A DNA stretch of 41,500 bases, taken from the IMG/VR virus record IMGVR_UViG_3300048584_000027, positions 1-41,500 of that record; one strand, written 5' to 3'. Position 1 is the first letter of the stretch. Each line of letters starts with the position of its first letter. Below, piece after piece: positions 104 through 41,500 of this stretch. Below the pieces are notes generated by a model. The model was given only the letters and a program-made list of their open reading frames with translations. It was not told the DNA's origin and searched no databases. Made by a program: the position numbers and the translations under genes. This DNA is from a virus.

Positions 104-127
104 CTATCGATCCTCCAATTTTTCAAC
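1..127. repeat. Left copy of the 127-bp terminal repeat (circle junction)
   Basis: These bases are identical to 41374-41500. A repeat of exactly 127 bp at contig ends matches the largest k-mer commonly used by short-read assemblers. It is best read as closure of a circular (or circularly permuted) genome rather than a biological terminal repeat. It splits one gene across the ends and repeats part of it. A real direct terminal repeat of this length cannot be excluded from sequence alone. Confidence 0.9.
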
Positions 128-295
128 TTGATCGGCTGTCACACAGATTTTACTACCGCATTCCGATTGTATGATGTACGTCCCAAATTCAGACACAAAA
201 ATAACAACACAAATTAATTTAAGTTCTCCAAGAACGTTTCCGCATCTTATAAGCGGCACAACGGCCAAAACTTTGTCACCTTTTTTAAATTTCAT
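104..295 (-). CDS. Small SH3-like barrel protein (63 aa), first of the HTH/STAS operon
   Basis: The protein opens MKFKKGDKV and alternates short hydrophobic strands (VLAVVPLI, LKLICVVIFV, YIIQ). This is the look of small YodC/KOW-like beta barrels, a fold that seems to recur in this phage (26103, 33998, 39969 and the end of 25301). It has two cysteines late on. The start is supported by AGGTG upstream. Its stop codon directly abuts the ATG of the HTH gene at the circle junction, so the two are probably cotranscribed and coupled. No function is known; the barrel assignment is by pattern only. Confidence 0.6.
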   Translation of the reverse strand: MKFKKGDKVLAVVPLIRCGNVLGELKLICVVIFVSEFGTYIIQSECGSKICVTADQVEKLEDR

Positions 296-358: not shown

Positions 359-586
359 TTACAGCTCGATGGCAGAAAGTGGCTGCTCTATCATGTAAAA
401 CAGGTCATTTGATCCATTTCCGTTGTCTCGGAAGTTAATTGCGCAATCAACTATTTTTTTAGCTACCTCTACGCTGATAAACTTATCAAATGCGCCGCTT
501 GCATATGCGACAACGTAATCAGTTGTAAACTCAATAAAATCACAGTATGAATCAAATGCGGATTGGTAAAGTGTGAATGCGTTCAT
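359..586 (-). CDS. Hypothetical early protein (75 aa)
   Basis: I do not recognise this protein. It is acidic and aromatic-rich (YCDFIEF, DYVVAYASGAFDKF) with no transmembrane segment or cysteine cluster. The ATG follows GGAG by a normal distance, and the gene is first behind the strong early promoter at 637-665. It heads a leftward operon that continues through 104-295 and, across the circle junction, into the HTH, STAS-like and membrane protein genes. Confidence 0.6.
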   Translation of the reverse strand: MNAFTLYQSAFDSYCDFIEFTTDYVVAYASGAFDKFISVEVAKKIVDCAINFRDNGNGSNDLFYMIEQPLSAIEL

Positions 587-636: not shown

Positions 637-665
637 ATTATAATTAAAGTTTGCTTATACGTCAA
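637..665 (-). promoter_or_regulatory. Early sigma70 promoter, TTGACG N17 TATAAT
   Basis: On the minus strand TTGACG (660-665) is 17 bp from TATAAT (637-642). The spacer begins TATAAGCAAA and the sequence after the -10 reads TTACTACATCAAGAC. Both belong to the extended early-promoter pattern shared by at least nine sites here. It drives 359-586 and onward. The -35 lies inside the 3' end of the 655-840 gene. Confidence 0.8.
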
Positions 666-33459: not shown

Positions 33460-33951
33460 TCATTTATGCACCCCTCTCAACCCACGCGCGCCAGTAAGTC
33501 CAGAACAATCTATACAGTCATCGCAGTCTGTGCAGTCTGTGCAGTCTGTGCAGTCTGTACAATTCTTGCAGTCGGTGCAATTCTTACATCTGAATCCACG
33601 ATCACAGTTGTGGCAATTATCACAAAGCATAGATTGCGTGCAATTTTCGCACTTATCACAGCGCTTGCATCCTCGGCAGTCAACACATTCGTTGCAGCTT
33701 TTACAGTGCTCACAGCGCTTACAGAGCACGCACCCCTCGCAGCTTTTGCAGTCATCGCAGAGTAGGCAGCCTGCACACCATTCGTTGTTCTTACCGAACA
33801 TGCCTACTTGACAATTCCAACATCCAATATGTGTGGCGCTCATCTCCTCCCAATCAGGAAGATCCTCAGCTAAATCAAGACTAAACCCATTAACCGCCTT
33901 GTCCTCTCGCTCCAGAAATTCAGCGTAAGAGGTAAAGATTTGTGTTGTCAT
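33460..33951 (-). CDS. Cysteine tripeptide-repeat protein (163 aa, 31 Cys)
   Basis: The first 42 residues are ordinary (FTSYAEFLEREDKAVNGFSL). From residue 43 nearly every third residue is Cys: CWNC, CAGCLLCDDCKSCEGC, CKRCEHCKSCNECVDC, ending CTDCTDCTDCTDCDDC. I count 31 Cys. A three-residue period suggests a stacked helix or coil with one Cys row, possibly binding metal or forming disulphides. Similar (xxC)n proteins are known as uncharacterised phage or bacterial proteins. The DNA has a matching 9-bp tandem repeat at 33524-33559, so length may vary between isolates. No signal peptide is seen. Confidence 0.7.
   Translation of the reverse strand: MTTQIFTSYAEFLEREDKAVNGFSLDLAEDLPDWEEMSATHIGCWNCQVGMFGKNNEWCAGCLLCDDCKSCEGCVLCKRCEHCKSCNECVDCRGCKRCDKCENCTQSMLCDNCHNCDRGFRCKNCTDCKNCTDCTDCTDCTDCDDCIDCSGLTGARGLRGVHK
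33524..33559. repeat. Tandem 9-bp repeat, four copies
   Basis: CAGTCTGTG repeated three times and a fourth copy with one change. Encodes Thr-Asp-Cys repeats on the minus strand, in the Cys-rich gene. Confidence 0.85.
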
Positions 33952-38679: not shown

Positions 38680-39115
38680 CCCGATAATTTACTACGCAAA
38701 AATAGCAGTTGTTTTGGCGCTCGCGGTTATGATTTGGCGCAACTCCGTTTTGTCAGAAAAAAACGAGGAGCTTAATACTAAAAATTATGAGTTATCCACA
38801 TTATTGCTAGATGCGCAACAATCACAAAATTTAATCAAAGAAATTGACGCTAAAAGGACAAAAGAACTTGAAGACGCAAAAAGTAAAATTGCTGATCTTG
38901 AGCGTGACGTTATTGACGGTACTAGGCGGTTGCAGCTCGCCGCAACTTGTACAAAAACAACAACTTCAACCGCCACCAGCGTGGATGATGCAGCCGCCGC
39001 CCGACTTACTGACGCCGCTCAACGGAATTATTTCATACTCAGAGATCGAATCGAAACAGCAGGAACACAAATAAAGGGGCTGCAAGATTACATTCGCGAT
39101 ATTTGCTTAAAATGA
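38672..39115 (+). CDS. Rz: Inner-membrane spanin Rz (147 aa)
   Basis: One N-terminal transmembrane anchor (IIYYAKIAVVLALAVMIW) followed by a long coiled periplasmic helix (EKNEELNTKNYELSTLLLDA; KRTKELEDAKSKIADLERDV), ending QIKGLQDYIRDIC. With Rz1 it fuses inner and outer membranes. Rz1 is nested in another frame inside it. Confidence 0.88.
   Translation: MINPIIYYAKIAVVLALAVMIWRNSVLSEKNEELNTKNYELSTLLLDAQQSQNLIKEIDAKRTKELEDAKSKIADLERDVIDGTRRLQLAATCTKTTTSTATSVDDAAAARLTDAAQRNYFILRDRIETAGTQIKGLQDYIRDICLK
38868..39074 (+). CDS. Rz1: Outer-membrane lipoprotein spanin Rz1, nested in Rz (68 aa)
   Basis: In the +1 frame within Rz. A TTG at 38868 has AAAGGA 9 nt upstream and gives MKTQKVKLLILSVTLLTVLGGC, a lipoprotein signal with lipobox LGGC; the mature part is proline-rich (QKQQLQPPPAWMMQPPPDLL). 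A TTG at 38844 would add eight residues. No ATG is available. Fully nested spanin genes are typical of lambdoid phages. Confidence 0.82.
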   Translation: MKTQKVKLLILSVTLLTVLGGCSSPQLVQKQQLQPPPAWMMQPPPDLLTPLNGIISYSEIESKQQEHK

Positions 39116-39148
39116 AAAAGCCGCTGATTAGTGCGGCTTTATTTTTTA
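39115..39148. terminator. Bidirectional terminator, copy 1
   Basis: AAAGCCGC - TGATTAGT - GCGGCTTT with A-run before and TTTTTT after, directly at the Rz stop. It serves both the lysis operon and the convergent 39156-39359 gene. The 34 bases are repeated exactly at 39481-39514. Confidence 0.88.
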
Positions 39149-39155
39149 TGAGAAA

Positions 39156-39359
39156 TTAATTTATTACATCTCCGGCATCGTCTTGATGCAAAACGGATTC
39201 TATAGTTCCAATTATTTTTATCTCCGATCCGTTATCATCCTCAAAAAAAGCCAAGTCATGCCAAGCCTCAATGGAAGATTCAACTGCATCAGCGTCATAA
39301 TGGTCACGAGAATCAACAGCATCATAAGCAGCTCGTAAGTCATTTGTTGTATTTTTCAT
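39156..39359 (-). CDS. Hypothetical early protein (67 aa), acidic
   Basis: MKNTTNDLRAAYDAVDSRDH, then DADAVESSIEAWHDLAFFED and IKIIGTIESVLHQDD. First and only gene between its promoter (39387-39415) and terminator copy 1. No family recognised. Confidence 0.55.
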   Translation of the reverse strand: MKNTTNDLRAAYDAVDSRDHYDADAVESSIEAWHDLAFFEDDNGSEIKIIGTIESVLHQDDAGDVIN

Positions 39360-39415: not shown

Positions 39416-39480
39416 GTCTATTTAATTTAAATTTTCCAACAAAAAAATCAATATCTTAGCTAAATGTAATTTTTAATAAT

Positions 39481-39514
39481 AAAAAGCCGCTGATTAGTGC
39501 GGCTTTATTTTTTA
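39481..39514. terminator. Bidirectional terminator, copy 2
   Basis: Exact 34-bp copy of 39115-39148, again just below a minus-strand gene (39542-39964). Following bases are also similar (GAAATTAATTTATT), so the duplication extends somewhat further. Confidence 0.85.
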
Positions 39515-39541
39515 CATGAAATTAATTTATTTTATTACATT

Positions 39542-39968: not shown

Positions 39969-40169
39969 TTACTCCTCACATTTAAAAATGAGTTCAGATC
40001 GTCGTAGTGCAATCACGCCAAAGCCAAGATCAATCGCACAAAATCCGTTCTGCGCTATCAAAATTATAGTTCCTGTGTGTTTTTCATATTTAACAAACTC
40101 ACCGTTGCGGTACGTTGGTTGATGAATATTTACACGTTCTCCAACTTTAAAATCATGAATATTTGACAT
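39969..40169 (-). CDS. SH3-like small protein (66 aa)
   Basis: DFKVGERVNIHQPTYRNGEF, KHTGTIILIAQNGFCAIDLG, then VIALRRSEL. The GERV-N and TGTIILIA strands resemble the other small barrels of this phage. GGGGTGA precedes the start. Behind promoter 40217-40245, ahead of the DUF551 gene. Confidence 0.65.
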   Translation of the reverse strand: MSNIHDFKVGERVNIHQPTYRNGEFVKYEKHTGTIILIAQNGFCAIDLGFGVIALRRSELIFKCEE

Positions 40170-40216: not shown

Positions 40217-40245
40217 ACTATAAGCAAACATTGCTTACATGTCAA
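40217..40245 (-). promoter_or_regulatory. Early promoter, TTGACA N17 TATAGT
   Basis: TTGACA (40240-40245), TATAGT (40217-40222), spacer TGTAAGCAATGTTTGCT, in which AAGCAA and TTGCTT form a dyad. Drives 40169-39542. Confidence 0.85.
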
Positions 40246-40251
40246 GTTAAT

Positions 40252-40458
40252 TTATATTAGATTCACAACAACATTTACGGAAAATGTTATTATGAGAATC
40301 ATCATTACCGCATAAATTAAAATCAGTTTAGCTAGATTTATTTTTCCAGATTCGTAGGAATCGAAAACAGTTTGCAGGACGTTAGAATATCCCGCATACA
40401 GAACAAAAAAACCAAAAAATAGTGAGAGTTTTGATATTATTTCAATTAATATGTCCAT
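40252..40458 (-). CDS. Two-segment membrane protein, end of STAS operon (68 aa)
   Basis: Start MDILIEIISKL (ATG complementary to 40456-40458) after AAAGG. Two hydrophobic helices: LSLFFGFFVLYAGYSNVL and ILIYAVMMILIITFSVNVVV. A short polar loop (FDSYESGKINLAK) joins them. It overlaps the upstream gene. Last gene of the cluster. Function unknown. Confidence 0.6.
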   Translation of the reverse strand: MDILIEIISKLSLFFGFFVLYAGYSNVLQTVFDSYESGKINLAKLILIYAVMMILIITFSVNVVVNLI

Positions 40459-40660
40459 GATTATACCTTTTTTGTTGAATTTGTTGTCCAATATCTATAG
40501 ATGATTTATTATACCTGTTTTTATAATTATTATTATCATATGAAATAATTTGTTTAGCTTGATTAAATGATTTTAATATTACTTCTTTTTTAATGTCATC
40601 ACATATCTCATTGGATTTAATAAAATTATCAAGCATTTTGCAAATCAATAAAATATGCAC
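40442..40660 (-). CDS. Small basic protein of the STAS operon (72 aa, GTG start)
   Basis: GTG at 40660 with AGGGG 7 nt before it gives MHILLICKMLDNFIKSNEIC; a later ATG (MLDNFIK) lacks a ribosome site. Helical middle (CDDIKKEVILKSFNQAKQII), then an Asn/Tyr/Lys-rich, probably disordered end (SYDNNNYKNRYNKSS). Overlaps both neighbours closely. Unknown. Confidence 0.55.
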   Translation of the reverse strand: MHILLICKMLDNFIKSNEICDDIKKEVILKSFNQAKQIISYDNNNYKNRYNKSSIDIGQQIQQKRYNHGHIN

Positions 40661-40661
40661 A

Positions 40662-41027
40662 TTATTCCCCTGCCGCTAATTTATATTTATGTATGATTAA
40701 TTCAACGCCTTCATTGCTAACATCGTCATAACTAGATATGTCAAAACTAATATAATCTCTAGAGTTGCCTGTTAAAATATCCACAATTATATTTTTTGCT
40801 GTTTTGTAACCGTTGAATATTGCGATAAGAAAAATAATCGGCATCAATAAAAATAGGTATAAAAAGACATAGAATTTATATATTGATATAATTGAGTAAA
40901 AATGCTCTCCATTAAAATAACTATCATTATAGTGTAAAAAGAAAGGTTTTTTTCTGTTAATTGATGTCACTAGTTTATTATATTCTTCGCGTGTGAAATT
41001 TAATTTAATGTATTTTTTATCGTTCAT
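40662..41027 (-). CDS. Two-segment membrane protein of the STAS operon (121 aa)
   Basis: Polar N-terminus (KKYIKLNFTREEYNKLVTSI), two hydrophobic helices around 47-75 (YSIISIYKFYVFLYLFLLMP, IIFLIAIFNGY), and a C-terminal domain (DYISFDISSYDDVSNEGVEL). The start overlaps the STAS-like gene's end. The two soluble ends probably face the cytoplasm, where they could meet the STAS-like protein. Not recognised. Confidence 0.6.
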   Translation of the reverse strand: MNDKKYIKLNFTREEYNKLVTSINRKKPFFLHYNDSYFNGEHFYSIISIYKFYVFLYLFLLMPIIFLIAIFNGYKTAKNIIVDILTGNSRDYISFDISSYDDVSNEGVELIIHKYKLAAGE

Positions 41028-41310
41028 TCATCTCATCCTGTCTGATCTTTATTGTGATGGAAATAACCCCTAAAATATTAGAATCTGCAATTATCATGAT
41101 ATGTTCATAAAATTTATTTAATCCAATTTTTACAACTAAAATGCTAAAGAGTTCATCAGCATAACCGCGAGTCATTGATTTTAAATGGCTTAAATCAATT
41201 AAAACCTTTTCCCCGCTAGAGATTAATTTTTCTATTTCTTTTCTGTGAGTCATGGCCGATGTGCGAGAGGCTAAATCGGTGCCATCTATTCTGTATTTAA
41301 CTGTTTCCAT
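41017..41310 (-). CDS. STAS-like domain protein, DUF4325-like (97 aa)
   Basis: METVKYRIDGTDLASRTSAM, then EKVLIDLSHLKSMTRGYADE-LFSILVVKIG. The pattern G..L.SR..A..-..v.iDl..l.s....yadElf..lv...G is that of the STAS-like family DUF4325, whose fold is that of anti-sigma antagonists. ATG lies inside the last codons of the HTH gene with AGGA before it. Such proteins often work with a histidine-kinase-like ATPase; none is encoded here. The recognisable serine of phosphorylated STAS proteins is not evident. Confidence 0.65.
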   Translation of the reverse strand: METVKYRIDGTDLASRTSAMTHRKEIEKLISSGEKVLIDLSHLKSMTRGYADELFSILVVKIGLNKFYEHIMIIADSNILGVISITIKIRQDEMNER

Positions 41311-41476
41311 TTTTTTTATCCTCAATTTTCCAGCGCTTGCTATATACGATCCCGTCTACAACAATCCACCCCTCGTTAACCCATCGCGTAACTTGCTGTG
41401 GCATTTTTCCGAGATGGCGCGCAAAAGCGGCTTTGCAGCCGCCGAAGTTTTTGTTGATATATTCTTCAATTAGCAT
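41297..41476 (-). CDS. Small HTH DNA-binding protein across the circle junction (59 aa)
   Basis: MLIEEYINKNFGGCKAAFAR-HLGKMPQQVTRWVNEGWIVV. The K-AAFAR-LGK-PQQVTRW segment is a Cro/YdaS-type helix-turn-helix, and IVVDGIVYSKRW is the usual beta end of such small phage regulators. GGAGG lies 8 nt upstream within the 104-295 gene on the other side of the junction. Overlaps the STAS-like gene by 14 bases, so it belongs to the operon and may regulate it. Confidence 0.8.
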   Translation of the reverse strand: MLIEEYINKNFGGCKAAFARHLGKMPQQVTRWVNEGWIVVDGIVYSKRWKIEDKKNGNS

Positions 41477-41500
41477 CTATCGATCCTCCAATTTTTCAAC
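41374..41500. repeat. Right copy of the 127-bp terminal repeat
   Basis: Identical to 1-127; see the left copy. The unique circle is therefore 41,373 bp. Confidence 0.9.

Follow-up and report, generated by a model that had tools for sequence, protein, structure and literature searches.

The control of bacterial immunity by kinase–STAS switches has only recently been demonstrated. Chambers and colleagues (EMBO J 2026) reported that the kinase CapK phosphorylates CapS, upon which immune operons are derepressed, and that CapK is activated by ssDNA, with a similar activation proposed for the kinase VapK (PMC13373217). CBASS, Bub, and Thoeris operons are under the control of CapK/CapS, and CapS is a transcription repressor comprising a STAS domain with a helix-2 site and a C-terminal wHTH (PMC13373217). 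In the anti-phage VapKSC system, VapS acts as antitoxin to the VapC nuclease; the kinase phosphorylates a serine in the STAS protein and the toxin is freed, and the gene after the STAS gene encodes the protein bound by the STAS domain (PMC13373217). VapS carrying the S48E substitution neither binds nor counteracts the toxin, i.e., the toxin is released, and S48A abolishes protection against phage Bas42, which is also lost upon mutation of either the putative ssDNA site of VapK or the active site of VapC (PMC13373217).

Two further arrangements are relevant to the present locus. In kinase–STAS(DUF4325)–TM operons, found for example in Marinobacter phage AS1 (L204), in a Helicobacter prophage (L205), and in Francisella phage KIRK, where a published table lists Fhv_0046-0048 as kinase, STAS, and membrane-protein genes (PMC7924643), the STAS gene directly precedes a gene for a membrane protein. 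The membrane proteins of the AS1, Helicobacter, and sampled-genome operons consist of an N-terminal TM segment and a coiled-coil. An operon comprising a GHKL-type kinase, a FLEEAF-type DUF4325 STAS protein, and a TM/coiled-coil protein in the slot of the vapKSC toxin recurs (loci L150, L151, L153, L155, L156, L160, L166, L126, L132, L204, and L205) and is possibly an undescribed kinase–STAS immune system with a membrane effector. In two-gene pairs of Halomonas/Billgrantia, Leptospira, and prophages (loci L083, L092, L106-L111, L148, and L177-L179), a GHKL kinase always accompanies a DUF4325 protein. In Billgrantia (L107 and L108, 2986-5964), the gene behind the pair encodes a membrane-anchored nuclease (DUF4041 + T5orf172/MUG113), the architecture of which resembles that of the SNIPE anti-phage protein.

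The locus described here belongs to IMGVR_UViG_3300048584_000027, a circular phage record of 41.37 kb, and the window is the whole stretch analysed, 41,500 nucleotides in length. Positions 1-127 are an exact repeat of 41374-41500, so that the record has identical ends and the HTH gene at 41297-41476 lies directly after the gene at 104-295, with no gap. Genes of the window include those for terminase, portal, sheath, baseplate, exonuclease VIII, endolysin, and spanin, together with lambda O-like and lambda P-like replication proteins; no match to the integrase family PF00589 was obtained in the window. The large terminase is approximately 67-70% identical to those of many prophage and phage sequences and of Pantoea phage PA-1. 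The genes at issue form one run of seven, given below in their reading order:

359..586, minus strand: putative early gene of 75 aa, first in the proposed operon running into the STAS block
104..295, minus strand: putative early gene of 63 aa, directly upstream of the HTH gene across the circle junction
41297..41476, minus strand: 59-aa HTH protein of the phrog_10103 family (E 9e-12)
41017..41310, minus strand: orphan DUF4325 STAS protein of 97 aa (P0001), matching PF14213
40662..41027, minus strand: 121-aa membrane protein (P0003) with one predicted TM segment (about residues 52-70), soluble at both ends
40442..40660, minus strand: 72-aa Asn/Lys-rich protein (P0004) with a GTG start
40252..40458, minus strand: 68-aa protein (P0005) with two predicted TM helices

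The initial annotation had proposed five minus-strand genes at 40252-41476 that continue from 104-586 over the circle junction; all five ORFs are present with precisely the ends proposed, and the terminal repeat accounts for the continuation. The HTH and STAS genes overlap by 14 nt, the STAS and 121-aa genes by 11 nt, and the 72-aa and 68-aa genes by 17 nt, the 121-aa and 72-aa genes being separated by a 1-nt gap, and a purine-rich Shine–Dalgarno-like stretch lies 5′ of each of the five starts. Among 500 order-1 Markov simulations of 40252-41027, none yielded a 121-aa ORF and none yielded as many as three ORFs of 68 aa or longer. The lowest-GC 1,059-bp segments of the genome fall in the block (26% vs. 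41.6%). By gene, GC is 0.43 for HTH, 0.32 for STAS, 0.26 for the 121-aa, 0.21 for the 72-aa, and 0.29 for the 68-aa gene, with an abrupt drop directly after the HTH gene; hence, the description of the cluster as more AT-rich than its neighbours is correct for four genes, whereas the HTH gene is similar in GC to the genome.

The HTH gene is a component of the phage early operon and is not specific to the STAS block. Its homologues occur in Yersinia, Erwinia, Providencia, Cronobacter, and Klebsiella phages, and in five neighbourhoods that were opened, no STAS or membrane partner lies beside the homologue and the genes right after it vary between phages. Therefore, the HTH gene appears to be resident and the STAS–membrane block to be cargo, and the earlier view that the cassette is self-contained and brings its own regulator is not supported. 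The best explanation of the AT-rich block, i.e., the four genes without HTH, is a horizontally acquired cargo inserted in the early operon behind the resident HTH gene.

By its sequence, P0001 is a STAS protein of the DUF4325 family and of the same kind as VapS and CapS. The DUF4325-like assignment made from the letters alone was confirmed by the PF14213 profile (E 2.3e-9, 37.2 bits, cut-off 23), and a profile of P0001 and its relatives yielded VapS (9z7o) as the sole match in the PDB (E 8.4e-5). The AF2 model (pLDDT 96.2, pTM 0.85) has the element order E-H-E-H-H-E-H of the STAS fold, with helix 2 at residues 48-62. Foldseek comparison of this model with the PDB yielded weak STAS matches, including the STAS domains of RsbS (E 0.019), TM1442, prestin, and YchM, none below E 0.001; among viral structure models, DUF4325 is named in four of the first nine matches, the best being short phage DUF4325 proteins. 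Annotated examples of such short proteins come from Bacillus jumbo phage PBS1, from uncultured marine phages, and from Myoviridae ctNQV2 (BFVD matches). Weak matching to DrmA was taken as chance, and a proposed homologue in Rhodococcus phage REQ2 was rejected owing to lack of sequence support.

The best relative of P0001 is 38% identical, and its subgroup, marked by [YF]ADELF, comprises proteins of Halomonas, Billgrantia, Leptospira, Muribaculaceae, other gammaproteobacteria, and prophages, including the aforementioned two-gene pairs (approximately 28-37% identity); L204 and L205 belong to a different, FLEEAF-type subgroup. No match was obtained with tblastn in phage records, in the viral contig scan, or, for DUF4325, in 50 TerL-related phage records, where an apparent match (L004) proved to be an HNH gene. 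A degenerate DNA scan for YADELF recovered two true relatives, the remainder being mostly unrelated proteins.

In comparison with VapS (Escherichia sp. E4736, PDB 9z7o), P0001 is likewise a single DUF4325-type STAS domain of approximately 100 aa and shares the helix-2 site, although it lacks the C-terminal toxin-blocking extension. Unlike the vapKSC locus, the phage locus has no kinase gene next to the STAS gene and no VapC/PIN gene downstream of it, where small membrane or Asn-rich products without PIN matches are encoded instead. Unlike CapS, P0001 comprises the STAS domain only, with no DNA-binding domain, and the HTH gene upstream is of a different family from the wHTH of CapS and occurs without STAS. 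Unlike the AS1, Helicobacter, and KIRK operons, the window has no kinase gene, and the serine is present in those of the three whose sequence was read.

The observation that no kinase partner is encoded held when a profile of the partner kinases was run against all six frames of the window (best E 1.6), and PF13581 had no match there. By contrast, nearly all of the STAS relatives in the subgroup are encoded immediately behind a gene whose product measures 304-344 aa, most of these proteins bearing the GHKL ATPase motifs (N-box ELHDNV, DxGxGF, and GxGL), and the profile built from the relatives' kinases recognises VapK at a vapKSC-type locus with a PIN toxin (L146; E 6e-15). Residues 47-55 of P0001 read T-R-G-Y-A-D-E-L-F, and in the model, helix 2 opens with R48 and G49, which take the place of the phosphoacceptor serine. 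VapS Ser48 (Ser66 of the chain, less an 18-residue tag) aligns with Arg48, and the position of Gly49 is occupied by Ser in each of the 12 stand-alone relatives whose genes immediately follow a motif-bearing kinase gene, several of which are closely related, including Halomonas proteins. Thus, P0001 has no Ser/Thr phosphoacceptor at 48-49, although Thr47, three residues before the helix-2 tyrosine (-3), is retained. The remaining STAS motif is kept in the alignment (YADELF, R16, R23, D39, and R90).

Two further DUF4325 proteins without a kinase are L180, encoded by phage IMGVR_UViG_3300037628_000643, the whole 104-kb record of which lacks the kinase, and L192, from a bacterial genome. All three orphans have Gly at the invariant Ser position. 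L180 and L192 keep a Ser at -2, aligned with VapS Ser48, and P0001 alone lacks both; L180 also differs from P0001 in lying among replication and recombination genes. In a tree of these approximately 100-residue proteins, which is weak, the three orphans, a small number, fall in separate parts, and L180 groups with L148 (support 0.90), which is kinase-paired and retains the serine; this placement suggests repeated loss of the serine among orphan lineages. The loss is not unique to orphans, since the serine is also missing from fused HTH–GHKL–STAS members of PF14213 (IGQAFADE); therefore, serine loss alone is no sign of a decoy. DUF4325 occurs in 54 of 369 sampled Gammaproteobacteria genomes, approximately 15-17 of which carry a stand-alone copy behind a kinase-sized gene, and the kinase-paired form is accordingly not rare in this sample.

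Tentatively, P0001 is read here as a phosphorylation-proof STAS decoy that counters kinase–STAS immune switches. In bacteria, STAS proteins of the VapS/CapS type hold an effector or promoter off until they are phosphorylated; the acceptor is the serine that opens helix 2, and the enzyme is a GHKL kinase that ssDNA activates upon damage or infection. With no kinase and no Ser/Thr at Arg48/Gly49, P0001 would be locked in the unphosphorylated state, and that a non-phosphorylatable STAS protein would be inhibitory is implied by the published result for VapS S48A. We infer that P0001 is made early in infection and replaces the host STAS protein, whereupon it could either keep hold of the host effector once phosphorylation has released the host protein, or occupy the kinase; in both cases, the immune switch could not fire. 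The genes for the membrane proteins would then be accessory genes in their own right, or their products would bring the decoy to the membrane. Such action would resemble that of T4 Dmd, a phage antitoxin against RnlA and a precedent for phage antitoxin mimics, as outlined in PMC5308261. Against this reading stand the low identity of P0001 to its best relative (38%), which makes binding to any host kinase or effector uncertain, and the two membrane proteins, for which it does not account.

The broader proposition that phages carry phosphorylation-proof STAS proteins, as natural equivalents of VapS S48A that act as dominant locks on kinase–STAS switches and form a distinct counter-defence class, is doubtful at present. 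If true, it would provide a sequence rule for such phage locks: a kinase-less DUF4325 gene together with a lost helix-2 serine. A non-phosphorylatable phage STAS protein would be a predicted switch inhibitor, of a kind that was not found reported in the literature. An orphan STAS protein lacking both kinase and phosphosite is a new form within the recently described immune-switch family and a good candidate for counter-defence.

The main rival, which is somewhat unlikely, holds that the STAS and membrane proteins constitute one constitutive device in which P0001 holds or gates the 121-aa protein, the 68-aa protein, or both, for superinfection exclusion or membrane takeover. A constitutive complex would need no kinase, and the best support is positional: the genes overlap and have AT-richness in common, a STAS gene followed by a TM-protein gene recurs in the AS1, Helicobacter, and KIRK operons (PMC7924643), and the STAS-bound protein of VapKSC is encoded in that same position (PMC13373217). 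However, none of the other genomes searched yielded the complete five-gene set; the recurring element is the order of STAS and membrane-protein genes, which elsewhere stands behind a kinase gene and involves unrelated membrane proteins. Neither P0003 nor P0005 is homologous to the membrane proteins of the AS1, Helicobacter, or sampled-genome operons, and for P0003 such homology was rejected by BLASTP (best E 1.5-2.4) and hhalign (probability 0.2%). Moreover, the orphan phage copy L180 has no membrane-protein neighbour.

The neighbour proteins themselves are without assigned families, none of the three scoring above the cut-off of any family in the libraries. Two two-helix membrane proteins had been proposed initially; the 68-aa protein indeed has two segments, whereas the 121-aa protein has one strong hydrophobic segment (52-70) within a long helix (43-86) of a weak single-sequence model, a fold too weak for use. 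No relatives of P0003 were found by tblastn in phage records or in viral contigs and bacterial genomes, and none of P0005 by tblastn in phage records or in viral contigs. For P0003, weak matches to Csa5/Cas11a, taken as chance, and to LEM3 in the PDB, confined to the TM segment, were set aside. The 72-aa product, previously termed small and basic, is mildly basic (11 K+R vs. 7 D+E); its relatives were sought in family libraries only, where it scored 17 bits against HATPase_c_5, below the cut-off of 22. This match is probably compositional, and a GHKL remnant was rejected, the match being sub-threshold and the partner-kinase profile giving no support.

The proposal that the phage uses a host kinase is possible in principle; in its developed form, P0001 would be a substrate of a host GHKL kinase, through which the phage times its membrane proteins by a host signal such as ssDNA or damage. 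Nearly all close relatives act beside a GHKL kinase, and Thr47 lies three residues ahead of the helix-2 tyrosine. Nevertheless, a switchable substrate should keep its serine, whereas Gly49 replaces the invariant Ser and Arg48 the VapS Ser48; loss of the phosphoacceptor favours blocking or escaping a kinase over being switched by it, and this reading is improbable. Comparably improbable is an unrelated scaffold role that has nothing to do with immune switches, such as the binding of an acyl carrier protein or of a STAS client in the host: STAS folds are used in many contexts and the Foldseek neighbours are varied, but the sequence profiles link P0001 specifically to VapS and the kinase-paired DUF4325 proteins. 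Least probable is a functionless, decayed remnant of a kinase–STAS(–membrane protein) moron that lost its kinase and, under relaxed selection, its serine, as the low GC, the orphan genes, the two losses, and the frequent proximity of prophage relatives to CI repressors or integrases might indicate. Against such decay, no ORF is disrupted, the starts overlap and have ribosome-binding sites, the STAS motif is otherwise kept in a fold predicted with high confidence, and Gly appears to have arisen at the same site in separate orphan lineages.

Two promoter-like sites bracket the run of seven genes:

652..665, minus strand: promoter-like motif TTGACGTATAAGCA followed by a TATAAT-like sequence, one of five such sites
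40217..40245, minus strand: strong promoter-like site after the block, agreeing with 11/12 consensus positions

The former is the probable start of the seven-gene operon, and the latter, lying beyond the block, would instead serve 39969-40169 and the DUF551 gene. Near-identical sites, each with TTGACNTRTAAGCA and a -10-like hexamer, lie on the minus strand at 652, 1223, 3073, 30981, and 40232, and the five probably represent a shared early phage promoter or operator. Elsewhere in the window, two adjacent paralogous early genes at 1791-2936 are 75% identical in DNA across 234 bp, and the 163-aa protein encoded at 33460-33951 consists mostly of CxxC repeats (CKNCTDCTDC), similar to a cysteine-rich repeat phage protein. 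Furthermore, a 59-nt repeat occurs in 90% identical copies at 39107-39165 and 39473-39531, each with a bidirectional terminator-like hairpin, and the pair flanks a gene for a 67-aa protein (39156-39359) between the lysis genes and the accessory block.
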